DNA from: Cymodocea nodosa | Lineage: Eukaryota > Streptophyta > Magnoliopsida > Alismatales > Cymodoceaceae | Assembly (NCBI GenBank): GCA_036874045.1 | Contig: CM072340.1 | Coordinates: 8,075,001-8,139,000, forward strand | Length of the DNA stretch: 64,000 nt | Direction: 5' to 3' | Shown here: piece after piece, positions 7,684-64,000 of the stretch | How positions within the stretch are numbered: position 1 is the stretch's first letter | How the letters are laid out: each line of letters begins with the position of its first letter | Position numbers and translations under genes: made by a program | Notes under the pieces: model-generated | What the model was told of the DNA's origin: nothing | The model's input: only the letters and a program-made list of their open reading frames with translations | Database searches by the model: none

Positions 7684-8949
7684 CTTCCCCCATACCTAAA
7701 TTTTACTAGTCCCTTAGCAAACTAAGATCTAATTAATTGGTCTTTCAAAAAGTGCTAGAATTAATTCTTCCCCTTTTGTTTTTTCTCTTCTATTTAGCAT
7801 AAACATATATTCTGTATGTTTCAGTAATCAACCTGCAAAGATATTTAGAATATATGTAAATTACATACAAAGTATATCATCTTCATATAGGTGTTAATTA
7901 TATTATCGTTTGTTCTTCTTTTCATCATCTGTTATCCTGAATTTTCCAATAAGTTTTTCTAGAAGAAATTTCAACAACATACGAATCAAAGTACAATCCA
8001 ATTCAATCTGATTAAGACAAGTAGAATAAAGAATTGTATTTCCATTAAACAACTTCAAAAGTCAATTCCAGATTCATATTTCAGCAATTCTAGATAACAG
8101 AAAATATACTCGATTCATAAGATATCTGTATTTCACAAAACACTTGTATCTTTTCAGAACAGTATATGTTTTTTTCTTTTCTTTTTTTTTGTGTACTTTA
8201 AAAGTTAATTTGACAAGCTTGAATCATACAAGAGCTTTCTAATGTACCCATGTAACGAGCTTTCAGTCAACAATCCCAGATCTGTTCAGGATCTTAGGTT
8301 GCCAGATTTTCAGAGTCCTTTTTCAGGTCAATAATCCTTACATACCTATCTGCTCAAGTACAAAAGGTTCGTGATCAAACAAGTCAATAAACTCTCAAAG
8401 TTTTGTTTCTCTTTTTTTTTCTAAAAATAAATGCATACACAAAACAAAGCATTAATCACATACTGTATATGCACGTATTTCATTAATACAAATGTAGTAA
8501 AACACCAATCTCATATAATCCTACTTCTATCATTTACTAAAAATATGAATCCATAATAATAAGCTCATACTTTATCTGTAGTTTAATAAGATCTACACAT
8601 AAATCATTCTACAAGTTCAATCAGTCAAAGTAAATGTATCTTTCATCATATGTGTTTCATTTAATCTAGAATTCACATCTCAGCTCCTTTAGGACTTCAG
8701 ATAATTTTCAGATTAAGCATTAAATATTCTGATTTCATTTTAAAATCGTGAAACTGTTAAACTCATGAAATTCAGAAAAATCATAAGATACTATATCTAG
8801 ATTTACATAAGTAATAAATTCTATAGCATCTTCTATAGCCTTCTAAATATAACATTCAAGCAGTTTATAAAAATTTTACAATCTCAATTATCGGATAGTT
8901 ACAGCAAGTTCATAAAAATTTTCAATTTCCTCAAAACTTTGCAGTACCA
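7684..8949 (-). other. GyD 3' noncoding module with polypurine tract
   Basis: On the minus strand the PPT (GGTATGGGGGAAG) abuts the LTR at 7684-7696. The remaining ~1.25 kb is noncoding and matches GyA 16229-17473, GyB 27815-29100 and, more distantly, the 3' region of copia CoE (about 62660-63446). It starts at a deletion junction with integrase at 8950-8953. I see no gene in it. Confidence 0.8.
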
Positions 8950-8953
8950 TTTT

Positions 8954-11900
8954 ATAAGTAGTTCTATAAGCCCAAAGTGCATCTATCAATCTATTAGCCC
9001 AATTTGTTCTAGTAGGATTTACTACTTTTTCCAAGGTAGGATTTACTACTTTTTCCAAGATTAATTTAATTTGTTTGTTTGCACTTTCTACTTGTCCACT
9101 TGTTTGCGGATGATATGATATTGCAATTTTGTGGTTTACTCCATATTTCTTCATTAAGGCTTCAAAACTTCTATTACATAAATGAGTTCCTCTATCACTG
9201 ATAATAGCTTTAGGTATTCCAAATCTGGCAAATATATTTGTTCTTATAAATAGTATTACCACTTTGTTATCATTAGTTTTTGTAGGAATAGCTTCTATCC
9301 ATTTAGATACATAATCCACCCCCAACAATATGTAATTAAATTGATTAGACATAGGAAATGGACCCATAAAATCTATTCCCCACACATCAAAGATTTCAAC
9401 CTCAACAATAGGATTAAGAGGCATCATATTCCTCTTTGATATTCTTCCTATTTGTTGACATCTTAAACAACTTAAGCAATATTTATAAGCATCTTTGAAT
9501 AGTGTTGGCGAATAAAACCCACATTGCAGAATTTTTGCAGTAGTTTTCCCAGAACCAAAATGTCCTCCACAAGCTTGGTCATGATAGAAAGACAATATGC
9601 TCGAATATTCATTTTCTGGAACACACCTCTTTAAAACCAGATCAGGACATTTCTTAAATAAGTAAGGGTCTTCCCAATAGTAATATTTTACTCTTGAGAA
9701 AAACAATTTCTTATCCTGTCTATTCCAATCCTTAGGTGTTAAACCAGTAACTAAGTAATTAACTATGTCTGCATACCAAGGCATTGTGTTGATGGTCATT
9801 AATTGTTCATCAGGAAAATTATCCTTAATTTCAATATTTGATTTTTCTATTTGTAATCTTGATAAATGATCTGCTACTACATTCTTACAACCTTTTTTAT
9901 CTTTAATTTCTAGATCAAATTCTTGCAATAATAATATCCATCGGATCAATCTAGGTTTAGTTTCTTTTTTCTTTATTAGATGTTTTAGAGTTGAATGATC
10001 CGTGTATACTATTACTTTAGCTCCAATCAAATATGATCTAAACTTTTCTAAAGCAAACACAACAGCTAATAATTCTTTTTCAGTAGTTGTGTAATTAACT
10101 TGAGCATCATTTAAGGTTTTGCTTGCATAATGAATCACTCTAGGAGATTTTTCTATCTTCTGTCCTAACACTGCTCCTATAGCAAAATCAGAAGCATCGC
10201 ACATTAATTCAAATGGATGGTTCCAATTAGGTGCTTGAATTATAGGAGTTGAAATTAAGCTAGTCTTAAGTTTGAAAAATGCTTCCTTGCAATTTTTATC
10301 AAAGTTAAATGGAACATCTTTTAATAGATTAGTTAAAGGTCTAGCTATCTTGCTAAAGTCTTTAATAAATCTTCTATAAAAACCAGCATGTCCTAGAAAT
10401 GATCTAATATCTTTTACTAATTTAGGTTCTGGTAGATTAGAAATTACTTCTATTTTAGCTTTATCTACTTTCAACCCTTTTTTAGAAACAACATGCCCTA
10501 AGACTATTCCTTGTTTAACCATGAAGTGACATTTTTCCCAATTTAAAACCAGATTTTTTCCACACAGTGTTTTAATATTTGGTCTAAATTGCTTAAACAC
10601 AATTCATATGAGTTACCATATACAGTAAAATCATCCATAAATATTTCTAAAAATTCTTCAGTCATTCCAGTAAATATGCCCTGCACACACCTTTGGAAGG
10701 TAGTTGGCGCATTGCATAATCCGAATGGCATTCTTTTAAAAGCATAAGTTCCATTAGGACAGGTGAAAGTTGTTTTCTCTTGATCCTCTAATGCTATTGG
10801 AATTTGATTATACTGTGAATACCCGTCTAGGAAACAAAAATATTCTTGCCCTGCTAATCTTTCCAGCATTTGATCTATAAAAGGTAAGGGAAAATGATCT
10901 TTCCTAGTCACAACATTCAGCTTTCTATAGTCTATACATACTCTCTAGCCTGATTGAATTCTAGTAGGTATCAAGTCTTGACTTTCATTCCTAATAATTG
11001 TTAATCCTAATTTCTTGGGAACTACATAGATTGGACTAACCCACGAGCTATCAGAAGTCAGATAAATTATGTCATTATCTAACCATTTAACTATTTCCTT
11101 CCTGACTACTTCTTTAAGGTTTGGATTTAATCTCCTCTCAGGAATTCTAACAAATTTGGCATTCTCTTCTAAATATATGTGGTGACAGCATAAAGTTGAA
11201 CTTAACCCTTTTATATCAGTCATAGTCCATCCTATTGCTTCTTTATAACTTTTTACTGCATCTTTTAATTTAGCTATTTGATCCTCTTTTAAATCTGAAG
11301 CAATAATGATTGGACAGGTTCGTTTATCTTCCAGAAATATATAGGTTAATTCAGGAGGTAAAGGTTTTAATTCTAAATGCTGCTCATCAGAAGCTAAAGC
11401 TCCTAATTGAACATCATCATTTTTTAAATTAATTTCTTCCTGATCTCCTTCGATATTTATGCTTTCACTTTCTTCTAAAGTTTCAGAATTGATTTGCTTA
11501 TTTAATTCTTCTTGAATCACATCATCTAACATATCTCCTTCATCCTCTAAAAAGTCTATGGTATGTAAGGACATTTCTAACTCCTCAAACCTTTCTAGTT
11601 TGAAAATATTTAATTGAGTATCCTCATTACCATATGCTAACTTCATTACTCCAGTTTTACAATTTATAACAGCCCCTGATGTTGCTAAAAATGGCCTTCC
11701 CAAAATTAAAGATGTATCACTATTTTTATGCTTAATTTGTTGGGAATCCAAAATTACAATATCAATAGGATATATAAAATTCTTGATTTTAATTAAGACA
11801 TCCTTTATTTTTCCTCTAGGGTATCTTATACATCTATCAGCTAATTGAATAACCATACTAGTAGGAGTTAAGCCTTCTAATCCTAAGGATGCAAATATAT

Positions 11901-13120
11901 CACTTGGCATAACATTTATACCTACACCTAAGTCTATTAAGGTTCTTTCTAGAATGGTATTTCCTATGGTGCATGATATAACAGGGATTCCAAGATCAGA
12001 TAACTTTTTAGGAATTTGTGGCAGAAATAGGGAACTACTTTGCTCAGCTAAAAAGACCTTTCTAAGAACTTTTCGCTCTTTTCTTAGTACACCAATCCTT
12101 CAAAAATTTAGCACAAGGTGGCATATTCTGCAATAGATCTAACAAAGGAATGTTAACTTGTACTTTTTCAAAAATTTCTCTGATTTTTTCTTGTTTTTCA
12201 GGAATTGTTTGTTGTAATCTTTCAGGATAGGGTGCTAAAGATTTTGATTTCAAAGACTCTTTTTCTTTCAGTTGATTTGTTTGATCATTTTTAGCTTCAA
12301 TTGCAGATTTAGATTGTTCTTCAGTGATTTCTAGATTTTCAGCTATTACATTTTCATTATCATTTTGATTTTTACTCTTGTCCATCTTCATATCATTTTC
12401 ATTTTGAGTTCTTGGTGGTATATCAGTTCCAGATCTTAATGTTACACATACATCTTCCAGATTTTCGTTACTTTCATGATGTTTTTGTATATCATTTTCG
12501 TGATTATGATCTTCAATTGTTTTTAGTTTTAAAGTGCATTCTTTAAATTCTCTTACATTAGTGTTTTCTGTTTGTTGTATATTTTGCAAGTTGTGCAGGT
12601 TTATAACATTATAATTTTCATTGTCCTGTTGCAAAACTTGTATTTTCATTGCATTTTTGTCTAATGCTTTTAATTTTGTTTTCAGATCATCTAATTTCAT
12701 TGCATTCAATTTTTGATCAATTTTCTTTATGGCTTTTTCAGTTTCGTAAATTATATCCTGTTTAGGTTCTAAATATGCCTCCTTATAGTTTAATCGGTTG
12801 ACTTCTTGTTGTTGACACACAAAGTATTCCAGTTTGTCCAGATTTTGCTCTATACTATGCTCCAGTTTGTCATAGCTATCCTAAACTTTAGTGTCTCTCA
12901 TCATATTACACATTCTATACTGACCATTAGTTGGGTAAACTATAGGATTCTCATACTCAACTCTATTATATTGAGGATAATTCATTTGTTGTTCATGGGA
13001 TCTAACAATCTGTAAATGTCTCAATTTCAAACAATCAGAAATGTCGTGTCCTTCAGAATTGCAGAATTCAAATATGCTAATTAAAGGTTTCAGAAATATT
13101 TGAGCATAAGCATATGCCAT
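8954..13120 (-). pseudogene. GyD pol frame: NC zinc knuckle-PR-RT-RH-truncated IN
   Basis: The probable start is the ATG at 13118-13120, about 120 bp after the PBS. The zinc knuckle lies at about 13031-13072; its first Cys is Phe (FEFCNSEGHDISDC). A Lys/Glu/Asn-rich linker follows. Protease has DLGVG near 11925, where GyC has DLGAG. RT is at about 11300-10560 with FMDD near 10630. RNase H runs from about 10205 ([13 protein letters not shown]). Integrase has an HHCC zinc finger near 9590-9450 and catalytic residues in [18 protein letters not shown] and QVESANKQ. After LWAYRTTYK the frame runs into the 3' noncoding module, so the integrase C-terminus is lost. Two net frameshifts (about 12070 and 10590) and several stops are present. 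No capsid domain precedes the knuckle. Confidence 0.85.
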
Positions 13121-13240
13121 ATTCTCAATTGCAGAAGAAAACACATAACTCTGACTATTAAAATGAAACAGCTCTAACAGTTGCTTATATCTATTCAATT
13201 CACTTCGACTCAATTCAATTCAATTCAGTTCAATTCAATT

Positions 13241-13257
13241 CCCTAGCAACGACGCCA
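13241..13257 (-). other. GyD primer-binding site (tRNA-Asp type)
   Basis: On the minus strand this reads TGGCGTCGTTGCTAGGG. It is complementary, with a few mismatches, to the 3' end of plant tRNA-Asp (ending GGCAACGGCGCCA). It lies 7 nt from the 5' LTR. A tRNA-Asp primer is typical of Athila elements. Confidence 0.8.
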
Positions 13258-13264
13258 TAAAACT

Positions 13265-15048
13265 TGTTTGGGTTTTCCCAACACTACACTAGAAAAACTT
13301 GGATTTGTTACTTCTGTTTTTACTTAGTTAATTTATCTTTATGCCTATTCTTTCTTTTAGAAGTAAACAAACAACCTTTAATACAATTTAGATATTAATT
13401 CCAATTTGTACTTTAACTGCAAGTGCATAGTGTCTATTGTATCAGTGTGCAAGTACAGGTCGATCCCACAGGGAATTGCTGATGAATTTAAGAAATGTTT
13501 GTTTGTGAACAATTCAAATTTATATTCAATAAGCACTCTGTTGAGTTACAATTAACTCAACAGACTAAGTTCATTGAGTTATGGCTAACTCAACGGACTA
13601 TCCTCGTGGACTTAAGTTAACTCCACGAGCCTGTCTCTTCTTTATAATACTGCTATTTACAGAGGAATTCGGTCAACCATTGGGCGATTCCACAGATTGT
13701 AAATAACATCAATTAAGCTTTTTAATGCTAGTTAACATTGGATTTATCATTAAGCAATACTAACATTTAGATGATTCAAACATTCACCATTAAAATCTTT
13801 AAGTTTTTTTGTACGAACCAATTTCAGTAAACTGTAAAATTAAAACTAACATAAAACAATCATAAAAATGATACAGATAACATTAATCACGATACAACAC
13901 AAACAATACAACACTCAAATACAACATACAAACAAAGATAAATTGTTTTTGGAATTTTTGTTTTGATGTAATGGGTGAAAGGTGAAATGTAAAGTAATCT
14001 CACTTGACAGTAAATACTTCCGACACTACTTGCAACGCGATTACACCATTGAAAATTAAACCACTTACAATTCTGTCTCCTCTCCCTATAGAATCGCGAG
14101 TCCAGAATTGCAAGATGGTCTCCTCTTCAGCATACAGGCATCAACCCGAAGCCAAGGCTAAAAGCTTTACGATCTCCTGAAATATGAGTTGGTGCTTGGT
14201 GAAAATGTCTTCCCTTCTTGCGACGCGATCACTCCTCACAGTGGTTGTCAGGCACTGTGTTTGGCTCGGAATTGACCCAACATCAGGCAAATATCCTCAC
14301 AAACCTCTGATGATTGGTGATTATGGTGGTGATAACAATGATTGGTGTGATACTTCGGAGAATCGCCGATACTGCCTGTAGAAAGCTTGGTGCTCCTCCT
14401 CTATATACACTGGTCGTCCATCGATCACACACTTCTTCTTTTTTTCTTCTTTTCTTTTATATTTCTTCAGTAGTAACTGCTTCTGCTTGAATGGTCGGTT
14501 GGATTTCCTTCCTTTAGATCAACGGCGATGATTTCTTTCTCCGTACGCGATTGAATTTCTGCGTGATACGTGCAAACATGATTTTTCCTTCCAACTGTCT
14601 GTTCCTGCAACCGCTACAGTGGCATTTTGGAAAATAACTATAAAATACATGCAATAAAGAAATAAGCCGTTACCTTAGTGTATATTCATGTAACTCAACG
14701 CGTACAGTTATGCTAACTTAACGAGTTATAACTTAAGTAAATCTACTAGATCTCGACACGTGTCAGCAGCAGTTTAAACATAAAATAACATTTTAGAGAG
14801 TTACAGGTATAACTATCTGATGCTCAGATGCATTTTCGGATACTTAAGAATTTCACAGCCTGCAATTTACCGACAGTTCATAAATGTACTAAATTAACAT
14901 TAATTCCCCAAAATTAAGCAGATTCTTCAATTAAAGCATATAACAGTGCAATTATAACATAATGGCTTAATTCTCATATGATAAGCTAAATATTATGCAA
15001 TTAACCATCATTTAATCATTAATAATATGCACTTTTTCATTCTAAACA
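13265..15048 (-). repeat. GyD 5' LTR
   Basis: The 1784-bp LTR has the same termini as 5885-7683. On the minus strand its TATA box, TATAAAAG, lies at 14454-14461. U3, towards 15048, carries one ACACGTGTC-type box near 14757-14766 and an AACTCGTTAAGTTAG-like motif near 14710-14725. Its right end is followed by the second TSD copy. Confidence 0.9.
14454..14461 (-). promoter_or_regulatory. TATA box of the GyD 5' LTR
   Basis: TATAAAAG on the minus strand, in the context AAATATAAAAGAAAAG. The same context is found in all related LTRs (18516, 48624 and, on the minus strand, 7076 and near 26999). It is the likely core promoter of this LTR family. Confidence 0.6.
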
Positions 15049-15053
15049 AGACC

Positions 15054-15705: not shown

Positions 15706-16190
15706 GCTGTGATTTTGTGTGTTTAATGTTGTGTATTCTGCATTTATTTTTAGAAAAAAAAGAGAGAAAAATTTTAGTTTTCATTTTTATTTTATAAAAG
15801 AAAAAAACAAAATATCAATCCAGTTTGTTGGTATCTATTCTGGGAAACCAACTAGCTTGCTTGTGAGCCACCAAAGGCATAGGAGCTTGGGTTCCACACA
15901 AGACACTGATTTATCAATATTTGTTAAATGTTATTTTGTTATATATTCTGCTTTTATCTGTGAATGAAAAGTTTTTCAAAATCAAAAATCGAAATATGTA
16001 GAAGGAGATACAAACGAAACAAGGTATGTAACTGATTACTTATCTTGAATTTAGATTTAAACCCATTCGTTGAGTTAGGTGCTAAATCAACGAAACTGTA
16101 TTCATGCTTGCTACAATTACCATATTTATTGTCAAATCTTTTACATTGAGGACAATGCAAAATGTAGGTATGGGGGGGAGGTAATTAAAG
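15706..16190 (+). other. GyA region after the F-box gene: structured conserved block and first PPT-like tract
   Basis: A relatively GC-rich block at about 15828-15906 is nearly identical to its GyB counterpart (about 29385-29465). It can fold with outer arms near GGAAACCAA and TTGGGTTCC around an inner hairpin (TGGCT with AGCCA in GyB). A GTTGA/TCAAC hairpin lies at about 16068-16098. At about 16148-16183 is the Athila-style context GAGGACAATGC, then AGGTATGGGGGGGAGG, which looks like a PPT but is not followed by an LTR. Confidence 0.6.
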
Positions 16191-17473
16191 TAACAGCCAT
16201 GTAAGTTTGTTAATTAAAGGAATTAAAATGGTACTGCAAAGTTTTGTGGAAATTGAAAATTTTTATGAACTTGTTGTAACTATCCAATAATTGAGATTGT
16301 AAAATTTTTATAAACTGTAACTGCTTGAATGTTATATCTAGAATGCTATATAAGATGCTATAGAATTTACTATTTATGCAAATCTAGATATAGTATCGTA
16401 TGTTTTTTTTTCTGAATTTCATGAGTTTAACAGTTTCACGATTTTAAAATGAAATCAGAATGCTTAATGAAAAGAATTATCTAAAGTCTTGAAGGAGCTT
16501 AAATATGAATTCTAGATTAAATGAAACACATATGATTAAAGATACATTTAATTTGACTGATTAAATTTGTAGAATGATTTATGTGTAGATCTTATTAAAC
16601 TACAGAAAAAGTATGAGTTTATTGTTATGGATTCATATTTTCAGTAAATGATAGAAGCAGGACTATATGAGATTGGTGTTTACTGCATCTATATTAATGA
16701 AATACGTACATATACAGTATGTGATTAATGTTTTGTAAAAAAAAAAGAAAAGAGAAAAGAACTTTGAGAGTTTATTGACTTGTTTGATCACAAGCCTTTT
16801 GTACTTGAGCAGATAGGTATGTAAGGATTGTTGACCTAAAAAATGACTCTTGAAATCTAGCAACCTAAGATCCTGATCAGATCTGGGATTGTTAACTGAA
16901 AGCTCGTTACATGGGTACATTAGAAAGCTCCTATATGATTCAAGCTTGTCAAATTAACTTTTAAAGTACAAAAAAATACATATACTGTTCTGAAAAGATA
17001 CAAGTGTTTTGTGAAATACAGATATCTTATGAATCGAGTATATTTTCTATTATCTAGAATTACTGAAATATGAATCTAGAATTGACTTTTGAAGTTGTTC
17101 AATGGAGATACAATTCTTTATTCTACTTGTCTTAATCAGATTGAATTGGATTGTACTTTGATTCGTATGTTGTTGAAATTTCTTCCAGAAATCTTACTGG
17201 AAAATTCAAGATGACAGATGATGAAAAGAAGAACACACGATAAGATAATTAATACTTATGTGATGATGATATACTTTGTATGTAATTTACATATATTTTA
17301 AGTATATTTGCAGGTTGATTGCTGAAACATATAGAATATCTATATAATAATACTAGTTCTTATGCTGAACAGAAGAAAAAAAAAGGGAAGAATTAATTCT
17401 AGCACTTTTAGAAAGACCCATTAATTAGATCTTAGTTTGCTAAGGGACTAGCAAAATTTAGGTATGGGGGAAG
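16191..17473 (+). other. GyA 3' noncoding module and second (LTR-adjacent) PPT
   Basis: This is noncoding, with no open frame worth naming. The segment about 16530-17315 is homologous by eye to 62660-63446 in the copia element CoE. It also matches the gypsy copies at 7684-8949 and 27815-29100. The PPT at about 17460-17473 (GGTATGGGGGAAG) abuts the LTR and is preceded by GGGACTAGCAAAATTTA, a variant of the context of the first PPT. Confidence 0.75.
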
Positions 17474-27814: not shown

Positions 27815-29553
27815 CTTCCCCCATACTTAAATTTTGCTAGTCCCTTAGCAAACTAAGATCTAATTAGTTGGTCATTCTAAAGTGCTAGAATTAATTCTTC
27901 ACCTAGTTCTTCAAAATAATAAATTAGATTATTATATAGATTTTCTATATATTTCAGTAATCTGTTTTAACTTTGTTTTCTCCTTTTCAACTTGCAAATA
28001 TACTTAGAATATATGTAAATTACATACAAAATATATCAGCATCACATAGGTGTTAATTATATTATCGTTTGTTCTTCTTTTCAGCATTTGTCATCTTGAG
28101 TTTTCCAATTTGATTTCCAAAATAAATTTCAAGTACATACAAATCAAAACACAATCTAATTCAATATGATTAAGACAAGCAGAATAAAGAATTGTATTTC
28201 AAATAAACAACTTCAAAAGTCTATTCTAGATTCATACTTCAGCAATTTTAGATAACAGAACATATACTCGATTCAAAAGATATCTGTATTTCACAAAACC
28301 CTTGTATCTTTTCAAAACAGTATATTCATATTTGTACTTTAAAAGTTAATTTGACAAGCTTGAATCATACAAGAGCTTTCTAGTGTACCCATGTATCGAG
28401 CTTTCAGTCAACAATCCTAGATCTGATTAGGATCTTAGGTTGCTAGATTTAAAGAGTCCTTTTCAGGTCAACAATCCTTACATACCTATCTGCTCAAGTA
28501 CAAAAGGCTTGTGATCAAATAAGTCAATAAACTCTCAAAGTTTTTTTTTTGAAGAAACAATATATTTATATATTTCATTATTACAAATGCAATAAAACAC
28601 AAATCTCATATAGTCCTGCTTCTATTATTTACTGAAAATATGAATCCATGTTAATAAGCTCATACTTTTTTTGTAGTTTAATAAGCTCTACACATAAATC
28701 ATTCTACAAGTTTAATTAATCAAATTAAATGTATCCTTGATCATATGTATTTTATTTAATCTAAAAATCAACATTTCAGCTCTTTCAAGATTTCAGATAA
28801 TTACTGAGTTTCAGTTAAGCATTTCGATTTCATTTTAAAATTGTGAAATTGTTAAACTCATAAAATTCAACAACAACATAAGATACTATATCTAGATTTG
28901 TATGAATAATAAAATTTGTAGCATCTTATATAAGATTATAAATATAACATTCAAGTAGTCATAGTTCTTAAAAATTTTATAGTTTCAAATATCAGATAGT
29001 TACAGCAAATTCATAAAAAAAAATTTTCAATTTCCATAGAACTTTTGTAGTACCATTCTAATTCCTCTAATTAACAAAATTATATGGCTATTACTTTAAT
29101 TACCTCCCCCCATACCTACATTTTGCATTGTCCTCAATGTAAAAGATTTTACAATAAATACAGTAATTATAGCAGACATGCATATTGTTTTGTTAACTTA
29201 GCATCTAATTCAACAAACTTAGTTGAAATGTAAATTTAGGATAAGTAATCAATTACATACCTCATCCTTTTGTATCTCCTTTAGTATCTTCCGATTTTTG
29301 ATTCTGAAAAACTTTTCATTCACATAAAAGCAAAGTAACAACATAACAATTTAACTTGTTAAATCAGTGTCTTGTGTGGAACCCAAGCTCCTACGCCTTT
29401 GGTGGCTCACAAGCAAGCCAGTTGGTTTCCCAGAACAGATACCAACAAACTGGATTGATATTTTGTTGTTGTTGTTGTTTTTTTTTTTAGAATAAAACTA
29501 AAATTAAGAAAATTGCAGAATACACAAAAAATTTAAAAGCACAGAATCATAGT
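27815..29553 (-). other. GyB 3' noncoding region with two PPT-like tracts and the structured block
   Basis: The LTR-adjacent PPT lies at 27815-27826 (plus-strand ACTTCCCCCAT context). The shared noncoding module follows to about 29100. A second tract (plus-strand CCTCCCCCCATACC) is at about 29103-29116, followed by CATTGTCCTCAATG. The structured block that also follows the GyA F-box gene is at about 29385-29465. No gene is seen. Confidence 0.7.
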
Positions 29554-33227: not shown

Positions 33228-35460
33228 TTAATCCTTTCTCCTAAGTTCATCTACTTCCATTTGGAGTCTTTCTACTTGTTGCTCTAATTGATTAATCCTT
33301 TCTACAGCTCCTGTAACTCCTTCAAAAGGTTCAGCTATCTCTATAACCACATAACTTCTGTACTCTTTCACTAAAATGGTTCTAGATCTTATCCTTTTGG
33401 ATGTCCATTTCGTGAAATCGATGCAGTCCACCATCAGCAGTGGAATCAAATCTCCATAAAATAATTTCTTCCTCACTATTCTCAGCTTGGAGATAAAAAT
33501 TGCAGACCAATTTATCTGAATTCTTTTCACAACTACATATGTGGCCCATTTGACAAATTGACTCAGTTCTATGTCATGGTCTTGTCATTGGTAGACATTC
33601 TTAATCAAAATGTTAGCTTTCAAGTGTGCTTTACCATTTAGCTGCTTTAGTCTATTTAATAATGGCACACCAAGATTGACAACTAAACAATCCTTTATGG
33701 TCTGTTCTGTCCACTCGACTGTAGTTGTGCTTTCCAAAATTTCCAGTCCTTCATTCTTCAATCCAAAAATATTGTGGAGAAGCTCTAGTATTATCTATAC
33801 ATCAGTTTGCTCCACATATGAAATTAATCCACTTTCTCCTTCCCTTAGGTTTGCATAAAAGCAGGGCACTAGATTTTCATATACTGTATGCCCTCTCTCT
33901 TGAGAAATAAACTGTAGTAGACCTTAGAACTCAAATAAATCGTTGATTTCTTGCATTTCTTCCCAATTTACTGGTCTATTGTAAATGATATCACAACCCC
34001 TTATCTCTTGGTATTTATTATAAGCTTCCTGACTCCAAAAGTGTACTTCATTTAAAACTGTTTTTTCAGTTGGGTTAGGAATGTGAATTTGTTGCTCTAG
34101 AGGGGTTTGTTCTTGAACTTCCTCTTCCATAAGCTGAATTTGAACTTGCTGAAAATGCTCCACAGATTTTGGCATTTTTGCTTCTACTTTTGTTTGTGGT
34201 GATGAGCCGGTAGAACTCTCCACTCTATCTTGAATACTGTCTAAAATTTGCTGAAGAGTTCTTTGCTCTTCAATAGAATCTGTCGAGTCATCTCTTTCCA
34301 TTTGTAATTGTTCAGCTTCTTGTTCATTTTCTTCTTTTTCTTCTTCCTCCTAACTACCAATCTGCAATGTCACTGTTCTTTTTGATTCTGTGGTAGATTG
34401 GGATGGAGTTACAGGCAAATCACCTTCTGCTCTAATTTTTGTTTCTTCTTCTTGTACAAGTTGCAGACTAGTTTTAGCTTGATTTTCTTCTTCTTTTTGC
34501 TCTTGCTCCTCTTCAAAATCAGATAGTAGGTTTACAAGAATCGGCTTTACAAGCCCTATTAATCTTGGTATTTCAGATTTAATCTCCTCTTGATGTTCAG
34601 GCACCATCTCTTTTCCTTTCCTTCTTCTGATTAATTGTGCTTGGTCTTCCTCTTCTTCATCTGAGATTAAATCTACAAAAATTTGATCTGTAGGCCTTTG
34701 AGCCATAGGTACTAGCTCTTCCTATTTAACTCTTTCCATAATTATTGGTCTCGAAGGACCAGCTTCATCTCCTTTTGTGGCAGGTCAAGCAATAGCTTCA
34801 TGATGTTGTTCCACTTTGATTTTATGTTGGGCTTTCAACTTTTCTGCAGCCCTCTTTTTGCATCGTGCATCAAACACCAAATGTGCTATAGCTACTACCA
34901 ATTCTTCTAGTTCTCCTTAGTCTTTTTCTATTTGAACCAGTTCTTGAAATTCTCTTCTTTCTTCTTCAGTAGAAGGCCCCAAAATTGCTACTCGTTCCAA
35001 CGACCTTGGTAATGGAATTGAAGGTCCTAGCTGTTGTTCCTTAGGAACAGGTCTTTCAACAGTCGGTTCCTCTTGTTCTGCAGTTGCCTCTTCTTCATTT
35101 TCTTTCCTTTGTTTCTCCTAGATTACCCACTACACCCGTCTACCTATGTGTCTTTTGAACTAGAGGCGGGACTTACGTTAGATTAGTTCTAGGGCAACTT
35201 CATTATTTGGCCTGATTTTTCTTTCTCTACTTACAGCAATTTCTATAGCAACCTTAATTCTAATTTCCATTATCTAAGGGATTTGTATACCCAAATCTAC
35301 TAACTCTTTCCTCCAATAGAAAAGGTCAGATTCTACCTTTTGTAGCTCTTTCCCTTGTCGTATTCTTGATTTTTTGTCTCGTGCGCCATTCCTCTGTATC
35401 TTTGAGAAATTCTGACGTGTCTATTGCATTTTCCCAGAATTCAGGTGTCATCTTCCTCAT
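33228..35460 (-). pseudogene. env-position ORF of GyB (putative plant transposon-domain protein), broken
   Basis: The start is the ATG at 35458-35460 and the end is 33228. One net frameshift lies in the N-terminal third; from 34706 to the end the frame is constant. The middle is Glu/Gln-rich (34350-34706). The domain region has NEVHFWSQEAYNKYQE and EINDLFEFQGLLQFISQE (about 34080-33920), and continues to LVPCFYANL and a conserved C-terminus (IDFTKW) ending in a coiled coil. GyB keeps Gln at three sites where GyA and GyC have stops. No signal peptide or fusion-type segment is visible, so I call it env-position, not env. The family role is unknown. Confidence 0.72.
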
Positions 35461-48229: not shown

Positions 48230-48397
48230 TAACTATCCGAAATGCATCTGAGCATCGAATAGTTAAATTTATAACTATCCGAAATGCATCTGAGCATCAG
48301 ATAGTTAAGTTTATAACTATCCGAAATGCATCTAGGCATCAGATAGTTAAGTTTGTAAGTATCCGAAATGCACCTAAGCATCGGATAGTTAAATTTA
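48230..48397 (+). repeat. 42-bp U3 hairpin array, four copies
   Basis: Units start at 48230, 48272, 48314 and 48356. Each has arms like TAACTATCCGA and a complementary CGGATAGTTA-type arm around a 13-14 nt loop. GyA has three units. Confidence 0.88.
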
Positions 48398-48623
48398 TGC
48401 ACGTGTTTTATAGTTAAATCAACGAAGAAATTTTGGTGAGTTATCTGTAACTCCATGGACTATTTATTTTCTAATATGCTACTGTAGCGGTTGCAGGAAC
48501 AGGCAGTTGGAAGAGAAAAACCACGCTTGCACGTAGCGCGCAGGGAGAAGAATTCATTGCCGTTGATATGAATGAAGGAAATCCAATTGACCATTCAAGT
48601 AGAAGTAGTTACTACTGAAGAAA

Positions 48624-54895: not shown

Positions 54896-56014
54896 ATTGG
54901 TAGTCAGGAGGAAGAAGAGAGAGCAGAGAATGAAGAAGAAGCTAAAAGAAGTCATTTGGACAAAAATAACTTCATAGATTCCATTGAAGAGCAAGAAACT
55001 CTTCAGCAATTTATGGAGAGAATTCAAGACAGAGTGGTGTGTTCTGCCAGCTCACCACCACAAGCAGAAACAGAAATTTAGGAATCTGTAGAAAATGTTC
55101 AAATGCAGCTTATAGAAGAGGAAGAGCAAGAACAAACCCCTTTAGAATAACAAAGTCACCTTCCTAACCCGATTGAAACAACAATTTTGAATGAAGTACA
55201 TTTTTATAGTTAGGAAGCTTATACCAAATACCAAGAAATAAGGGGTTACAACATTATTTACAGTAGACCAGTAAATTAGGATGGAATGCAAGAAATCAAA
55301 GATTTATTTGAATTCCAAGGTCTACTGCAATTCATTTCTCAAGAAAGAGGGCATGTAGTTTATGAGAATTTAGTGCCCTGTTTTTATGCAAATTTAGGAG
55401 AAAGAGAAGGAGGATTAATTTCAAACGTGGAGGAAGCTGATGTACAGATAACACCAGAGCTTCTCCATAACATTTTTGGTTTAAAGAATAAAGGAATAAA
55501 AATTTTGGAAGATACAACTACAGTCGAGTGGACAGAATAGCAAATTAAGGATTGTTTAGCTATCAATCCTAGTGTGCCTTTATTAAACAGATTGAAGCAT
55601 TTAAATGGTAAAGCACACATGGTAGCTAACATTCTAATTAAGACTGTCTATCAACGACAAGGCCATGACATAGAATTAAGTCAATTTGTCAAATGGGCCA
55701 CATATGCAGTTGTAAATAAGATTCAAATAAATTGGTTTATAGTTTTTATCTCCAAGCTGAGAATAGTGAAGAAGAAATTGTTTTATGGAGATTTGATTCC
55801 ACTACTGATGGTGGACTGTATCGATTTCACTAAATGGACATAAAAAAGGATCAGATCTAGAACCATTTCAGTGAAAGAATACAGAAATTTTGTAACTGCA
55901 GAATTAGCTGTACCTTCTAGAGGAATTACAGGAGCAGTAGAGAGGATTAATCAATTAGAGCTTCAATTAGAAAAACTCCAGAAGGAAGTAGATGAACTAA
56001 GGAATGGAGATTAA
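54896..56014 (+). pseudogene. env-position ORF of GyC, C-terminal half only
   Basis: The first ~1.1 kb of the ORF, including the ATG, is deleted relative to GyA (between about 693 and 1836). The remainder stays in one frame to TAA 56012-56014. It covers the end of the acidic region, the plant-transposon-type domain (DLFEFQGLLQFISQERGHVV) and the C-terminal coiled coil. Stops at 55148, 55211 and 55538 match GyA stops at 2076, 2139 and 2466, where GyB has Gln codons. It cannot be expressed as a full protein. Confidence 0.75.
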
Positions 56015-56442
56015 ATTGTATTGTTCATCTACTTGTATAAAATTGTATGTTGTACTTGTATTGTAAATTGATTCATATTAATGAATGTAAATTTTTCAGA
56101 TGCAATTTTCATACGTGTTTTGAATGTGAATGTTGAGTATTTTTGTTTTGATGATGTGCGCTAAATGAAAATAATCATATTTGCTCAATTACTATTGCTT
56201 GTGAAAAGAAATTAAAATCATCAATTAATACAGAAAAGGCTTACTAATATAAATACTTGTCTGTATTGGATCTGAAATTAATAACTAGTCGTTTCATTGC
56301 ATTAATTTCTCATTTAGCTAAACATTAAGTTAACGTGTGTTTTTATTGAAAAGCATGATATGTTTTAAAGTTATATCTTCTGTATCATGAACATTGTACG
56401 TTTAGACAACTCGTTAAGTTAGAGTTTTGTTTGTATAGAGGT

Positions 56443-57016
56443 CACGTGAGAACTTGTTAAGTTAGAGGCTTAAAGGTTAAAATAGGTCACGTGATAACTC
56501 GTTAAGTTAGTGAGTAAAAGAAGAGACGAACTCGTTAAGTTAGTGTTATACACGTGGTGAAATTATAAGTTACGAATGTTGTATTGTATCACGTGAGGTG
56601 CACATGTTTAACTCGTTAAGTTAACATAACTAAACGTGTTGAGTTGCTATATTGAACACTAAGGCAACGCGTTAGGTTAGCGTTATAAACTTAAGTTGTT
56701 ATTTTTGCACGTGGTAAAATTCTTATAATAAAAACATTTGTTTATTACTAAATCAGTGAGTTAAAGTTTTTTGGAGATTTACAGTCGTAACTATCTGAAA
56801 GGTAACTTAAGTCATGTTTTCAGGTATTGACATGTGTCTCACTAGTTTTATAATATAAAGAGTTTTTCGGTGACTTATATCCATAACTATCCGAAACTTA
56901 AACTGTTTTCGGTGAGTTATCGTTTAACCTTCCGAAAGAAAGATTAAGCTAGTTCGTTGAGTTAGCATAACACCACAGACATAGTTCGTTGAGTTAGCTA
57001 CAATACTTGTCACGTG
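56443..57016 (+). promoter_or_regulatory. cluster of six CACGTG boxes in the CoE U3
   Basis: CACGTG lies at 56443, 56488, 56551, 56590, 56708 and 57011. It alternates with AACTCGTTAAGTTAG-like motifs (near 56409, 56452, 56497, 56529, 56612 and 57030). CACGTG is the plant G-box core bound by bZIP and bHLH factors. A regulatory role here is inferred from density and position upstream of the TATA box. Confidence 0.5.
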
Positions 57017-57317
57017 AAATGGCACATGAGGAACTTGTTAAGTTAGAAACGTTAAGTTATATATATATATACTTGTGTTACTCGTTTAGCTAACATTAAA
57101 GTAACGACTTCTTATTACACTGATGAAAAATTTTTGGACGAGAAAGTTTATTTTGTAGGAAATTTTTCAGAGATCCAAGACTGTTGATTAAAGGAAATTC
57201 GAAATATAAACGTGGGTTGGAACGTGTGTGTTTCGATGAAGGAAAAAGAAAAGACGTGGAGAAGTGGAAAACTGGTAGTGATTAAACGTGGAGGATATGC
57301 ATGAAATGAAGATACAG

Positions 57318-57325
57318 TATAAAAG
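57318..57325 (+). promoter_or_regulatory. TATA box of the CoE 5' LTR
   Basis: TATAAAAG in the context ACAGTATAAAAGGCAT, downstream of the CACGTG cluster and about 570 bp before the LTR end. Confidence 0.65.
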
Positions 57326-57890
57326 GCATAGAGTTCTCGTTGGTCAAACCATCCTTGCACACAAAACGAAAAATATTTTCAAGGATCAAACTATCCCTGC
57401 ACACCAAAAGAAAAATCTCTTTCAAGGATCAAAAACACCTTCTCAGGGAAAATCTCTCAAGTGAAAGAAAATTCAGTGAAGCATAAAAAGGTAAGATTTT
57501 CGTCACTGAAGATTTGAAGTATCAGAAGAAAGCAAATTCGGTGAAGCATAAAAAGACAAGATATTCGTCACTGAAGAATTGCTGAAGAATAAAGAAGAAG
57601 AACAAGAAGAAAGATCTCAAATAGGGAGAAATGTTTTAAATTCCGCAAATTAGTTTTCTCTGTTTGTAGTTATGAAATTGTATAGATGAAACATGGTATC
57701 GAAATATAATTGAATCTATAATTTCTGAGGAGAATTGAATTGTATATTGTAATTGAAACCTTGAATAAAAATGATTTTATGAAAACAATGTCTCGACTTG
57801 TTTTTGAGATTTAAAGTTTCAATTATATTTCAGAAAATATTAAAAATACACAATTCACCCCCCTCTTGTGTAGCCATGCGATCCTACAAG

Positions 57891-57902
57891 TGGTATCAGA
57901 GC
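57891..57902 (+). other. CoE primer-binding site (initiator Met tRNA)
   Basis: TGGTATCAGAGC two bases after the LTR end. Confidence 0.95.
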
Positions 57903-58088: not shown

Positions 58089-60324
58089 ATGGCTACTAGA
58101 AATGGTAATTTTTCTTTATATGAAGGCCAAAATCTTAATCGTCCTCCTTTATTTGATGGAATACATTTTGAATATTGAAAATATAGGATGACTGTTTTCC
58201 TTCAAAGTATAGATCATAAGTTGTGGTTCATGATTTCTAAACCATATACTTCATTAACTACTCCTTATAATACTTGGACAATTACTGAAAAAGAAAATGA
58301 AACTCTGAATGCTAAGGGTTTAAATATTTTATTTTGTGCATTGAGTTATAAACAGTTCAGTAAAGTGTCAGCATATAAATCTGCTTATGAGGTGTGGCAT
58401 GCATTAGAAGTTTCACATGAAGGTACTTCTCAAGTTAAAGAGACTAAAATAAACATGTTGATTCATAAGTATGAACTCTTTAAGATGCATGAAGACGAAA
58501 ATGTTTCTGAGATGTTTTCCAGATTTCTTGATATCATAAACTCTTTAAAATGTTTAGGAAAGAATTTTGAATAGAAGGATTTGGTGAGGAAAATTCTCAG
58601 ATCCCTAAGTTCTAAATGGTCTTAGAAAGTAACATCAATTGAGGAATCACGAGACTTAAATGTTTATACTATGAATGAACTTATAGGAAATTTAACAGCT
58701 TATGAAATTCAATTAAATGAATCACTGAGTCACAACAAATTAAAAATGAAGAAAGAAATAGCCTTCGAAATTAATTCAAATTCAGATATATCTATTGATT
58801 CTGACGAGGATTTGATTTTGTTGACTAGGAAATTCAAGAAAGCATGGAAAGCTAGGAAACAGTAAAGGAACAAAAATGATAAACCCTCAACGTCAAAATC
58901 ACTGAATGACAAGAATTCTTCATCCAAAAAGTATGTATGTTACAACTATAAGAAACTTGGACATCTTTCTCCAGATTGTCCTATGAGGAAAAATGAAAAG
59001 CAAAGTAGGACAAATCAGAAGAAGACGGCTTAGAAAACTTAGAAAAAGTTTTACAAGAAAAAGGCTTTGAAGGTCACTTGGGATGACACGTCTGAAGAGT
59101 CTGAATCTGAGGAATCAGCATCAAAATCTTCACATTCAGAAGAACAAGAGTTAAAAGATGTTGCTCATGGCAGATGAGTCTAAGGTAATATCTGATCTTG
59201 AAAGTCATTCAGATTTCAACTTTGATGAATTATTATGTGCTTATCATGCATTATTACAAAAACTTAAAGTATGTAAACTGGAAAATAAGAATATTAGAAA
59301 ATTTTCATCCATTATGGAAGAAGAAAATTGTTTCCTGTCTACTACATTAGAAAAGTTTAAATATGATAATGAAAATCATGCTAGAGATTTGCAAAAATTT
59401 AGATTTAATGAATGTATCTTGCATGAACAAATACAAAATATAAATGCTGAAAAATTAAAGATAGAATCTGAAAATGAAATGTTGAGAAACAATATAAATG
59501 AACTTGAATTAGAGATAGATAAATTAAAACTGAGAGAGCAAGATTTAAATTCTACCATTGAGAAATGGAATTTAAGTCAAACTAAGTTAGACAAACTAAC
59601 TAGTACCCCTGCGGCGTCTTATAAATTTGGCTTAGGATTTGATTATCCTGAATCTCAAGCTAATAAACGATTTATTAGTTGCAGTTCAAGTAAATCTAAG
59701 ACTAAAATTCCTTTTATTATGAAACAAGGTAATAAATATGTAGAAGTAGGTACTTCAATTGATTAATCATGCAGTAATAATATAAATCAATGTGATTTGT
59801 CAAATTGTACTTCTAACATGACTATAAATGTTTCTAAAAATCTTGTTTCTTGTTCTGGAAATTCAGTTTCTAATGTTTCTAAAATTTTAGACAATTGTAG
59901 TATACTGAAAATTCAGAAACCTGAGCATGTAATTCAATACACTAGTATTAGACCAATTACTCATTCTGCATGTGATAAAACTAAAAATTCTTATGTAGAA
60001 AAAGATTTTGTATATACGAAAAATGTTAATACAAGTACAAAATCTTGGTATGAACTTACTGAAATAAATAAGCATGACCAAAATAAATTAACATCTGATA
60101 AAAATCTGTTTGGTCTTGATTATACTACATCTGAAAACAAAAAGAATGATTGTAAAAGTAATAATGCTATATGTGAGTATGAAGCTAATGATAAATCAAT
60201 AGTACTTACAACTAATAAGAATATAAATGATAATGTTAAACTATTTTTAAACAAAAAAAAGAAATATGCGTTTAATGAACTTGGTCCTCAACAACATTGG
60301 GTACCAAGAAAAAGTTTTTCTTAA
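58089..60324 (+). pseudogene. CoE gag with capsid, zinc knuckle and long coiled coil, broken
   Basis: The ATG at 58089 starts a UBN2-type capsid (RPPLFDGIHFEY, YEVWHALEVSHEGT). Stops lie near 58176, 58572 and 58623. The knuckle near 58938-58980 is CYNYKKLGHLSPDC, where the second Cys is Tyr as in CoG. A frameshift near 59150 leads to a coiled coil (about 59270-59600; ESENEMLRNNINELELEIDK). A Ser/Asn/Lys-rich tail follows, ending QQHWVPRK at about 60310. The extended gag is typical of SIRE-type copia elements. The segment after 59766 (TAA near 59764) has no recognised domain. Confidence 0.82.
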
Positions 60325-60327
60325 TTT

Positions 60328-60600
60328 GTGTTGCAGGAGGAAACAACATCAAAATGGATCTTGGACAATGGAGCGTCAAGTCACATGACCGGACAGAAAA
60401 GTCTATTACAAAATTTTACAAATACCATGAAAGGAAGTGTAACATTTGGAAACAAAAGCAAAGATAAAATCATAGGTGTGGGCAATGTTCAAATAACTCC
60501 TACTTGTATTATTTCGAATGTACTATATGTAGAAAACCTAGGATTTAATTTGCTGAGTGTCATAAAACTAACTGAAAATGGATAAAGGTATATTTTTTTA
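60328..60600 (+). pseudogene. CoE protease fragment
   Basis: The aspartic protease has WILDNGASSHMTG, so the triad is DNG instead of D-S/T-G. The fold continues through VTFGNKSKDKIIGVGNVQI and NVLYVENLGFNLLSV. It breaks at TAA 60583-60585, close to a deletion junction at about 60600. Integrase, which should follow, is absent. Confidence 0.82.
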
Positions 60601-62383
60601 AATTAGAGATCAATAGAGAGATTGATGATTTATCTGAGAAAATCAAAAATATGAACTTAAATGATCAAACTAATGATGAAAGTGATGTACCTTTAGATGT
60701 TGATGAGAATATTGAGGAAAATCAAAGAAATTGGTGTTATTCTTCATCACATCCCATTACTCAAGTCATTGGTAATATTAATGAGGGAGTTAAAACTAGA
60801 GCTTCAGTAAATTTAAATAATATGTGTATGCTTGTTTCTATGGTGGAACCAAGGAATATATAAGAAGCATTATCTGATGAAAATTGGATAGTGTCAATGC
60901 AAGAAGAACTAAATCAATTCATTAGAAATGATGTATGGGAATTAGTCTCTCCACTAGAAAATCAGTCCATAATAGGTACAAAGTGGATCTTTAGAAACAA
61001 AACTAACGAAACTGGTCAAGTTATAAGGAATAAAGCTAGATTAGTTGCACAAGGGTATACATAGGAAGAAGGATTTGATTATGATGAAACATTTGCTCCA
61101 GTGGCTAGGTTAGAAAGTATTAGAATATTATTGGCCTATGCTTATTATATGGATTTTAAATTATATCAAATGGATGTAAATAGTGCATTTCTAAATGGTT
61201 TAATTAATGAAGAAGTCTATGTAAAACAACCACCTGGATTTGAAGATATTAAAAATCCTGACTTTGTGTATAAATTGAAGAAAGCCTTATATGGTTTGAA
61301 GCAAACACTTAGATCATGGTATGAAAGATTGTCTACTTTTTTAATAGAAAAAGGCTATATCATGGGAAAAGTGGATCATACTCTATTTATTAAGAGAGAT
61401 GGTAAAGAACAGATTGTTGTTCAAATATACGTGGATGATATAATCTTTGGAGCAACCTCTGATAAGTTGATAGAAATATTCTCTAAAGAGATGACTAATT
61501 AGTTTGAAATGAGTATGATAGGAGAACTTTCATATTTTCTAGGACTTCAAATTAAGCAAATGGATAAAGGTATATTTTTAAATCAGGAAAAATATGCAGA
61601 TGAAATGTTTAAGAAATTTAATTTTAATGATACAAGGATTCAAGGAACTCCTATGAGTACTACTTTAAAGTTAGATATTGATGACATAGGAAAATCTATA
61701 GATCAAAGAAAATACAGAAGTATGATTGGTTCTTGACTTTATTTGACTACTAGTAGACCTGATATTATGTTTGCTGTGTGTGTTTGTGCTAGATTTCAAT
61801 CTAATCTAATCCTAAAGAATCACACTTAGTTGCAGTTAAAAGAATATTTAGATATATACAAGGAACTAAAAATTTCAGACTGTATTATTTTAAGGATAGT
61901 TCAATAGATCTTATAGGATATACTGATGTTGATTATGCAGGATCTAAATCTGATAGAAAGAGTACCAGTGACACATGTCAATTATTGGGAAATAATTTGG
62001 TGTCATGGTTTAGTAAAAAGCAAAACTGTGTAGCACTTTCTACTACAGAAGCTGAATATGTTGCTGTTGCACTGTGTTGTACTCAGATTCTATGGATAAG
62101 GCAAACTTTAGAAGATTTTGGATTATCTTATGATACAACTGAGATTTATTGTGACAGTAGTTCTGCAATAAATCTTTCCAAAAATCCTGTATTACATTCA
62201 AGAGCAAAGCATATAGAGGTTAGTCATCATTTTCTAAGAGATAACGTAATTAAAGCAAAAATTAAATTAGAATTTGTGTCTAGTAAAAATGAATTAGCTG
62301 ATATATTTACAAAACCTCTAGATGAAAATACATTCTGCAACATTAGATTAAATTTAGGTATTTGTAGGCTATGTGATGTATAA
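60600..62383 (+). pseudogene. CoE reverse transcriptase and RNase H, broken
   Basis: The frame begins in the linker between integrase and RT (GVKTRASVN near 60786). RT has ARLVAQGYT, YQMDVNSAFLNGLINEEVYV, LYGLKQTLRSWYERL and YVDDIIFG (near 61430). Stops lie near 60860, 61062, 61500 and 61734, and a frameshift lies in 61780-61850. RNase H has IGYTDVDYAGS and a complete C-terminal half: STTEAEYVAV, IYCDSSSAINLSKNP, HIEVSHHFLRD and ADIFTKPL. It ends at TAA 62381-62383. Confidence 0.87.
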
Positions 62384-63446
62384 AATGCTTAAACTCCACA
62401 TAAAAAGATAAATATTATTGATGATGTTGTTCACCTCATAGATATTATATACTTATTATAAATATCTAAAGTAATATCTAAACTGCTGCTTAAGATACTA
62501 TGTATTTATTTTAAAATCATAGTAGTATCTTATTGATTTTAAGTAGTTTATCAATTTTAATGGTTTTTATGATTTTAAGTGGAAGTGTAAATGAAAAACA
62601 TTAAATACTTCTGACATTCTGAAATTTTGATTAAATGTTTTCTTTGAATCAAGGAAAATCCATATGATCATGCATAAATTTGACTTAATTGATTAAACTT
62701 GTAGAATAAGTTATATGTAACTCATCTTAAACTGTTAATCAAAAGTATAAGCTTATTGAAAATGATTCATATTCTAAGTACAATCTTAGAAGTAAAAATT
62801 GTATGAGATTTGTGTTTTATTGCATCTGTATTAATGGAATACATATATACTGTGCTTAAAATGAAAAGTGCTTACAAAGTGAAAATCTTTGAGAGTTTAT
62901 TGATCAGTTTGATCACTAGCCTTTTGTACTTGAGCAGATAGGTATGTAAGGATTGTTGTCCTGAAAAAGGATTCTTTAAATCTGGTAACCTAAGGTCTTG
63001 ATCAAATCTGGGATTGTTGACTAAAGGCTCATTACACGGGTACATTAGAAAGCTCTTGTATGATTCAAGCTTTTCAAACTAACTTTTAAAGAAAATTATC
63101 AATATTTACTGTTTTGAAAAGAAAAAGTTGTTTATTAGTTACAGATATCTTTGAATCGCATATAGTTTCTACCAATATGACTACTGATTTATTGAATCAA
63201 CATTAGTACTTTTGAAAACATTTATTTGAGATACATTCTTTTATTCTCCTTGAATTAATCACTTTGAGTTCAAAGTTGTGTTTTGATTCATATATAGTAG
63301 GAATTGATTCTGGAAATCATTTTTGATGATGTCAGGATAACAGAAGTTTTTGAAAAGAAAATTTAAAAGTATAGTTATACTTAACATCTATTGTCACTAC
63401 AAGTATATTTTGTATTTTGATTGAATATATTTGAAGTATATTTGTA
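62384..63446 (+). other. CoE 3' noncoding module, homologous to the gypsy 3' module
   Basis: No gene is seen. From about 62660 to 63446 it aligns by eye with GyA 16530-17315 on the same strand. The best stretch is about 62885-63075, with shared landmarks GAGAGTTTATTGA, TTTTGTACTTGAGCAGATAG, GTATGTAAGGATTGTTG and GGTACATTAGAAAGCTC. Homology ends at the PPT. Confidence 0.8.
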
Positions 63447-63455
63447 GGGGGAGGA
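63447..63455 (+). other. CoE polypurine tract
   Basis: GGGGGAGGA follows TATTTGTA and precedes the presumed start of the 3' LTR. This tract form is usual before copia 3' LTRs. Confidence 0.7.
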
Positions 63456-63462
63456 TTAACAA

Positions 63463-64000
63463 TGTCGAAAATAGATTAATATAATTTAGAATACAAATCT
63501 TAGTTAATCTAAATTAATGTACTCTTAAAATCTTGATGAAATAATTTAAAAAGACAAATAAACTATTTTAGATTCAAAGGACAAAATGTTCAAATAGTTT
63601 ACAATGTTCTCAAGATAATGTTAAGTTTAGCATGTGTGTTGTTTTCGGAACGTTTCAGTTGGAAGCATCTGAAAATTGTTGTGTACTAACTAGATTTTTT
63701 GTTAGATAAGGTAACGTGTAAAACTGCCTTTGTACAGCGTTTTACTCGTTATGTTAGTTAACTCAACGAGTTTTACTTGAATATTTCGGGTACCTTGATT
63801 GAATAAACTTTATTTAATATTTATTTAATTTCTAAACCCGACTTCTCTTCACGTTAAGTTATACGCCTAAAAACCCTATTTAAACACTTATTACATGGGA
63901 ACTTAGGTTATTTGTAAACTTTGTCAAGAAAATCTTTCCCGCTTGGTTCTTATTACACTGGTGAAAAATTTTTGGACGAGAAAGTTTATTTTGCAGGAAA
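63463..64000 (+). repeat. CoE 3' LTR, cut by the window edge
   Basis: The TG at 63463 is the most likely LTR start but is not confirmed. U3 has a GTTAACTCAACGAG-type motif near 63757-63770. The last 54 bases match the 5' LTR at 57109-57162. The upstream 480 bp do not resemble the 5' LTR by eye. Confidence 0.55.

Follow-up and report, generated by a model that had tools for sequence, protein, structure and literature searches.

A noncoding module of about 1 kb common to copia and gypsy retrotransposons of Cymodocea nodosa

Copia and gypsy elements of the window

The stretch of DNA analysed here (64,000 nucleotides, hereafter the window) corresponds to C12:8075001-8139000 of the 374.6-Mb assembly of Cymodocea nodosa, and contains nested copia and gypsy elements. 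The copia element CoE is inserted into the gypsy element GyE on the same strand: homology between GyE and GyA stops at 56130, and the CoE LTR begins at 56131. The 5' LTR of CoE (56131..57888, +; TGTTGAG ... CCTACA), whose ends agree with those of a 3' LTR found in locus L062, is followed by a Sirevirus-type CA/AGTGG/TATCAGAGC junction (57887..57902, +; judged after PMC2829016), with the PBS at 57891. The remains of gag-pol (58179..62383, +) comprise gag_2, RVT_2 and RNase H and end at a stop at 62381; the integrase is mostly deleted, about 1.08 kb being missing between 60584 and 60603 by comparison with locus L055. The RNase H ORF was covered over 84-100% of its length by each of at least 120 relatives, five of which were inspected and ended similarly, and the protein relatives with names were nearly all from flowering plants. 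The assignment of CoE to the copia type rests on the domain matches and on these RNase H relatives.

Downstream of pol, CoE carries the noncoding module described below (62410..63446, +), an internal AGGGGGAG octamer (63446..63453, +), a further stretch of copia linker (63454..63945, +), which was present in 19 of the 20 copia loci sampled on contig C1 and ends at a deletion junction, and the start of a truncated 3' LTR (63946..64000, +). The latter matches 57109-57162 of the 5' LTR, with about 978 bases of U3 missing; within the window, the two LTRs have only these last 54 bases in common, and past the window end the match reaches 93% over 780 columns (L002). CoE is a deleted Sirevirus-type copy: besides these U3 bases, it has lost its extra ORF and its terminal PPT.

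Several rearranged copies were observed alongside. Directly behind the 3' LTR of CoE, L002 ~3549-3640 resembled, by eye, the reverse complement of CoE 60600-60690, and CoE may adjoin an inverted second copy. The short sequence GGATAAAGGTATATTTTT forms a direct repeat, being present at both 60579-60600 and 61562-61580, and deletions seem to use it, since L026 joins 60584 to 61589. Five copia loci of C1 (L055, L058, L059, L060 and L061) were 99.1-99.8% identical over 5.4 kb and were devoid of 61374-62365 (RT/RNase H) but had kept the module; they are apparently a young, non-autonomous group. In another copia copy (L045 895-1690), a 5' LTR-type U3 piece (56133-56964) was joined to pol at 61914.

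Sireviruses are the SIRE/Maximus lineage of Ty1/copia and, in the sections of Bousios et al. (2010; PMC2829016) used here, are described as having long linkers that separate pol from the 3' LTR and in some cases include an env-like ORF; these linkers are very diverse (4.8% mean identity) and hold 3-5 PPT copies. Other features given there are a AGGGGGAG-AT-TG terminal PPT with an inverted repeat, a CA/AGTGG/TATCAGAGC junction and a C-rich LTR end. In a CoE-family copy that begins in L051, the AT and then the 3' LTR's TG come directly after AGGGGGAG at L062 1227-1238. CA/ATTGG or CA/AGTGG with TATCAGAGC was found at the 5' LTR end of CoE (57887-57902) and of CoC (near 21187), and an inverted repeat was seen by eye at the PPT/3' LTR junction of L062 (TTTTGTCATCATCAAAA before, TTTTGATGATG after). 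Only one linker octamer was found in CoE 62384-63946 (at most one mismatch) and, unlike the 3-5 PPT copies of those sections of PMC2829016, two exact GGGGGAG-type tracts lie between pol and the 3' LTR in L051 and L062.

Among the gypsy elements, GyD (5882..15048, -; LTRs 5882-7683 and 13262-15048) lies inside GyA. The superfamily labels of the original prediction hold, as RVT_1, RT_RNaseH, integrase H2C2 and rve were identified in GyD, alongside the copia domains gag_2 and RVT_2 of CoE; GyD has RT, RNase H and integrase, and GyB and GyE have parts of this set. The PBS TGGCGCCGTTGCC, which we take to be of the tRNA-Asp type, was found exactly at 49845 and with at most two mismatches at 13245 and 46483. 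A second RNase H before the integrase marks Tat elements; no such second family was detected in GyD 8891-10603 at E 1e-3. The Athila ORF-1 domain PF03078, which according to the part of PMC6317226 drawn on occurs in 16% of Athila elements, had no match in the window ORFs scanned (intact pieces). In GyA, an additional PPT-like tract lies inside the element, immediately before the module (16173..16180, +), the terminal PPT being at 17464; an extra linker PPT is attributed to the Athila/Calypso/Diaspora lineage, as cited in the sections used of PMC2829016, and the env-like proteins of this lineage are described in part of PMC1142308 as poorly conserved.

The gypsies also exhibited domains beyond this set. 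An extra frame upstream of the module (30403-30735, -) contained an F-box domain (PF00646, E 1.6e-11); a similar frame was found at 5415-5687 (+), and frames 15046-15702 and 29557-30399 gave weak F-box-associated matches. A gag-like domain (PF03732) was located downstream of the integrase region in GyA (3850-4437, +) and GyB (31612-32028, -), with E values of 1.5e-7 and 7e-17, respectively, which is an odd location for gag. Moreover, many copies of TAACTATCCGAA / TTCGGATAGTTA boxes were observed in both copia and gypsy LTRs (17695-18288, 47765-48398 and 19886-20257); they recall the palindromic repeats reported for Sirevirus LTRs.

A module common to the two superfamilies

The original prediction was that a noncoding 3' segment of CoE aligns with segments of GyA, GyD and GyB. 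Pairwise alignment of CoE 62384-63460 confirmed this homology in the predicted orientation, with 73.3% identity to GyB (996 columns, E 9e-167), 70.9% to GyA (1087 columns, E 4e-155) and 70.0% to GyD (1085 columns, E 1e-145); the gypsy modules were 80-88% identical among themselves. When five sub-segments of 62384-63446 were each compared with the three gypsies, the real score was reached by 0 of 200 dinucleotide shuffles in all 15 comparisons, and for the whole stretch by 0 of 100 shuffles for each gypsy. Collinearity extends along the entire module. In the gypsies, it was delimited by alignment at 16257..17314 (+) in GyA, 7831..8888 (-) in GyD and 27990..28945 (-) in GyB.

Its extent in CoE had been given as 62660-63446. 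The homology of that interval stands, whereas the start does not: the module begins near 62410, directly behind the pol stop, and ends at the internal AGGGGGAG; within it, 62416-62656 has weaker (39-42% divergent) yet significant homology. Beyond 63456, no significant homology was found between CoE and GyA or GyD (score reached by 298 and 247 of 300 shuffles, respectively), and that with GyB was marginal (7 of 300). The homology fades at both ends; identifiable breakpoints between two parents are the feature by which a template-switch chimera is judged. Many copies of a homologous noncoding module, about 1.04 kb long, are carried by a copia family of Sirevirus type and a gypsy family that is Athila-like.

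An exact 21-mer from the module core had 2,911 occurrences genome-wide, and its reversed control had none. First-look searches gave 3,771 candidates for the copia module, the best 40 scored being CoE itself and 39 places at 96-97% identity, and 5,314 candidates for the gypsy module, the best 40 scored being GyA itself and 39 places at 92-94%. To describe the genomic contexts, 40 places with an intact core 21-mer were picked by hand on contig C1, about every second or third. Both contexts were found among them: 20 places had CoE-type pol upstream and 20 had gypsy linker and/or gypsy LTR, with no third context among the 40. Two of the loci had truncated modules (L027 and L050), and L031 and L032, which lie 15.5 kb apart with similar flanks, are apparently one duplication. 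Because of the 2,911 core 21-mers and the two element contexts, the module is not a chimera of one locus. An independent repeat inserted separately in each element also found no support, all 40 sampled places being inside one or the other element type.

The module had been taken for a chimeric 3' end stopping at the CoE PPT, a reading that the other copia copies do not support. In the 11 copia loci examined for this purpose, the linker matched CoE up to 63945 in seven, up to 63957 in two and to 63717 in L042, while L027 was rearranged. The approximately 2.3 kb behind the module end of L051 was matched by 16 of the 19 other copia loci, and 17 of the 20 contained the C-terminal part of an extra ORF. 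In L051, the extra ORF region consists of three adjacent open pieces split by stops (3647-4084, 4088-5053 and 5057-5419), and it continues in L062 2-391. It is followed in L062 by TTTTGTCATCATCAAAA-AGGGGGAG-AT-TGTTGAG...TTTTGATGATG, which correspond to the terminal PPT, attachment site and inverted repeat of Sireviruses; the LTR is 95.6% identical to the 5' LTR of CoE over the first 636 columns. In this copy, the one traced to its 3' LTR (L051 and L062), 3.3 kb separate the module from the terminal PPT downstream of it. The octamer at CoE 63446, which lacks the Sirevirus AT/TG after it, is therefore internal and was rejected as the terminal PPT. The copia order is pol, module, extra ORF and LTR.

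The module is not the only part in common. Pieces of the copia extra ORF matched the post-integrase region of GyB, GyE and GyA with 32-34% identity over 114-133 residues (E 8e-23 to 2e-14), the homologous gypsy frames all containing stops (GyA 2094..2687, +; GyB 33483..34076, -; GyE 55166..55759, +). These ORF pieces had no match above the curated cut-offs in Pfam, none in NCBIfam and a single match in PDB (E 0.99). In the LTRs, a U3 patch of CoE (56501..56680, +) matched the GyB LTR (27434-27265) in the same orientation, at 73% over 181 columns (E 5e-26). The CoC LTR matched those of GyA, GyE and GyB at 60-71%, and CoE U3 was as much as 89% identical to a gypsy LTR over 107 columns (L034); several U3 matches are repeats or in inverted orientation and carry lower weight. 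Overall, 28 of the 30 copia-gypsy matches in the window were in U3 or linker and two weak ones elsewhere (23219-23387). The gypsy order (pol-ORF-...-module-LTR) differs from the copia order.

The conserved core

The slowest part of the module is a core of 196 nt (CoE 62884..63079, +), which was 88-89% identical between CoE and the gypsies, versus 58-80% for the remaining segments. Differences nearly fixed between the families (at least 80% in each) were found in 11 of the 196 core columns and 176 of the 741 columns outside (58 modules, p 7e-10). Net copia-gypsy divergence was 0.052 in the core, versus 0.159, 0.232, 0.273 and 0.325 in the other segments; the core has diverged 3-6 times less than its flanks. 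Almost half of its columns (97 of 196) were invariant in all 58 modules.

A coding role of the module was rejected, as no ORF is conserved. GyA contains an antisense ORF of 96 aa, to which one of 68 aa corresponds in CoE; in GyD and GyB, no antisense frame crossing the core stays open for 45 codons or more. No codon-phase bias was detected in the core (11/70, 17/70 and 13/70 variable columns), and a search for protein homologs of the module returned two candidates, neither with E ≤ 1. The module was not found in viral contigs, GTDB contigs, plasmids or phages; an 18-mer match in viral contigs proved non-homologous, and no relatives of the GyD ORF or of the CoE RT were confirmed in viral contigs. 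A putative splice donor GGTATGTAAG in the core and a putative acceptor TTTGCAG/TTTGTAG at the module end were noted by eye.

Compared with shuffled sequences, the sense strand of the core had fold z scores of -2.4, -3.2, -3.1 and -2.9 in the four window copies, and the antisense strand 0.2, -1.5, -0.8 and -2.7 (the last in GyB). In a scan with 205-nt windows, none of 11 windows of GyA was below z -1.9, and in the CoE linker 4 of 14 windows, all four outside the core, reached z -2.6 to -3.7 (62384, 63311, 63620 and 63723). Because these CoE windows score comparably, the fold score alone is modest evidence for an RNA structure in the core. The 69 predicted pairs were formed in 96% of cells on average over the 58 copies. 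Covariation was scant, with double changes in 3 of the 69 pairs, one of which, the outermost, exhibited a clean A-U to U-A swap between families; two pairs were lost in copia. RNAalifold found one pair with both sides changed among the four window copies. In Rfam, 62384-64000 had a single, sub-threshold match (snR40 at 63666-63756, minus strand; 19.3 bits versus 50).

Origin of the module and relation to known systems

A profile search found the module in all 60 loci L002-L061. The tree was built from 58 modules, i.e., 54 of these loci and the four window copies. L002 and L010 were left out as they correspond to copies in the window, L020 as it coincides with L022, L021 as it was not part of the sample, and L027 and L050 as they are truncated. 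In this unrooted tree of one genome, 27 copia modules were separated from 31 gypsy modules, with no exceptions (UFboot 100, FastTree 1.0), and the split was repeated in all five sub-segments (support 1.0, 1.0, 0.985, 1.0 and 1.0). The copia and gypsy modules thus form two separate old lineages, and a recent local chimera is not supported. Given this clean split, there is no sign of later exchange between the families, either in the 58-module tree or in the five sub-segments; such a tree gives neither a count nor a direction for exchanges that preceded the split.

We consider it probable that a single ancient exchange between copia and gypsy carried the module into the second family, and that it has since been inherited within each family. 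The likeliest routes would be recombination in a mixed particle at the reverse transcription step, or a copy made from the transcript of a nested or deleted element. An exchange between elements, as originally predicted, is thus the best-fitting reading, and template switching, the mechanism then named, is a possible one. As the extra ORF and the U3 patches are also common to both families, the post-pol region was probably exchanged in a larger block or on more than one occasion; the difference in ORF-module order implies that the common parts would have needed more than one simple step.

As a weaker part of this reading, the 196-nt core may act as a cis-acting element of the element RNA, e.g., in export, packaging or dimer formation. 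This suggestion draws on its near-constancy between families, on the lack of a conserved reading frame and on a sense-strand fold better than that of shuffles. The differing order of module and ORF disfavours a role limited to expressing the extra ORF. More tentatively still, and with rather more doubt than belief, the core might be a portable cis-acting RNA element serving both Pseudoviridae- and Metaviridae-type cycles, which crossed superfamilies, was selected in both and belongs to an exchangeable post-pol cassette with the extra ORF and U3 patches.

The exchange could also have taken place at the DNA level, through nesting followed by deletion with read-through transcription (transduction) or by unequal recombination, rather than by switching between co-packaged RNAs. 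Nesting is seen in the window, with CoE in GyE at 56130 and GyD in GyA, and CoE itself is a deleted copy, but no intermediate was found, and the age of the event has erased the breakpoints, making the routes indistinguishable here; we regard this course as rather unlikely, though the strongest of the alternatives. An independent uptake by both families from a host sequence or another repeat is improbable. The F-box frame just upstream of the gypsy module indicates that host capture occurs in that family, and the fading of homology at both module ends is in line with such an uptake; against it, none of the 40 sampled exact-core places (one contig, intact 21-mer) was outside the two families, the module is collinear throughout, and U3 and ORF are common as well.

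The core alone might have been exchanged a second time long ago, before the spread of each family, which would explain its low net divergence (0.052 versus 0.159-0.325) without selection. Consistent with this, the core was not less diverse than its flanks within copia (0.045 versus 0.044-0.056); within gypsy, it was slightly less so (0.070 versus 0.078-0.112). However, the core alone still separates copia from gypsy (support 0.985), it was less variable than the rest among the three window gypsies (18/194 versus 122/732 columns, p 0.009), and, in the four window copies, core and flanks did not differ significantly in the number of copia-gypsy differences per gypsy-gypsy difference (p 0.16-0.20). 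We give this later replacement a small chance, similar to that of independent uptake. Inheritance from a common ancestor of copia and gypsy would account for the presence of the module in both superfamilies, but is very hard to reconcile with noncoding flanks that are still 58-80% identical when the coding regions gave no blastn match at E 1e-4. Finally, that the module behind CoE pol is merely the 3' end of the host gypsy GyE, as the same-strand nesting and the rearrangement of CoE at 63945 might suggest, was rejected as next to impossible, because the CoE module groups with 26 other copia modules, all 39 other best-scoring places are 96-97% identical to it, and pol lies upstream in 20 of 20 copia loci on C1.

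In the literature examined, documented exchange between LTR elements is mostly within families or concerns captured ORFs, and we met no report of a noncoding block common to copia and gypsy, subscription journals being mostly outside this search. A noncoding block that has apparently crossed superfamilies and spread in both, with a core of about 200 nt nearly unchanged, suggests a cis-acting signal usable by copia and gypsy alike. This is relevant to the question of whether RNAs of the two enter a common particle, to the way in which long linkers are assembled and to classification by noncoding sequence, and the core is a concrete object for testing.

The CoE family resembles Sireviruses in its long linker, terminal PPT, inverted repeat, 5' junction and C-rich LTR end, but differs from them in that a kilobase of its linker is homologous to gypsies, nothing of the kind being mentioned in the consulted sections of PMC2829016. 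Similarly, the window gypsies resemble Athila/Calypso/Diaspora in their Asp-type PBS, post-pol extra ORF and extra PPT-like tract; the part of PMC1142308 used here mentions no sequence common to copia elements, unlike what we found. Bean copia and gypsy families with extra ORFs have been described, the gypsy ORF2 being unrelated to env-like proteins (PMC4093653, in part). Template switching has been proposed to fuse plant LTR elements, with BARE2 and VejuL named as examples (Sabot and Schulman 2007; PMC1950507, in part). New elements made from parts of two LTR elements are the point of likeness; the cases in the portion of that paper used here are recent, lie within families and show target duplications and three LTRs, whereas the present one is old, noncoding and between superfamilies. 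In bdelloid rotifers, extra ORFs are common to unrelated retroelements (PMC5408684, in part), which resembles our finding of the same module downstream of pol in unrelated element types; the rotifer cases presented there are protein-coding, whereas here the best conserved common part is noncoding.
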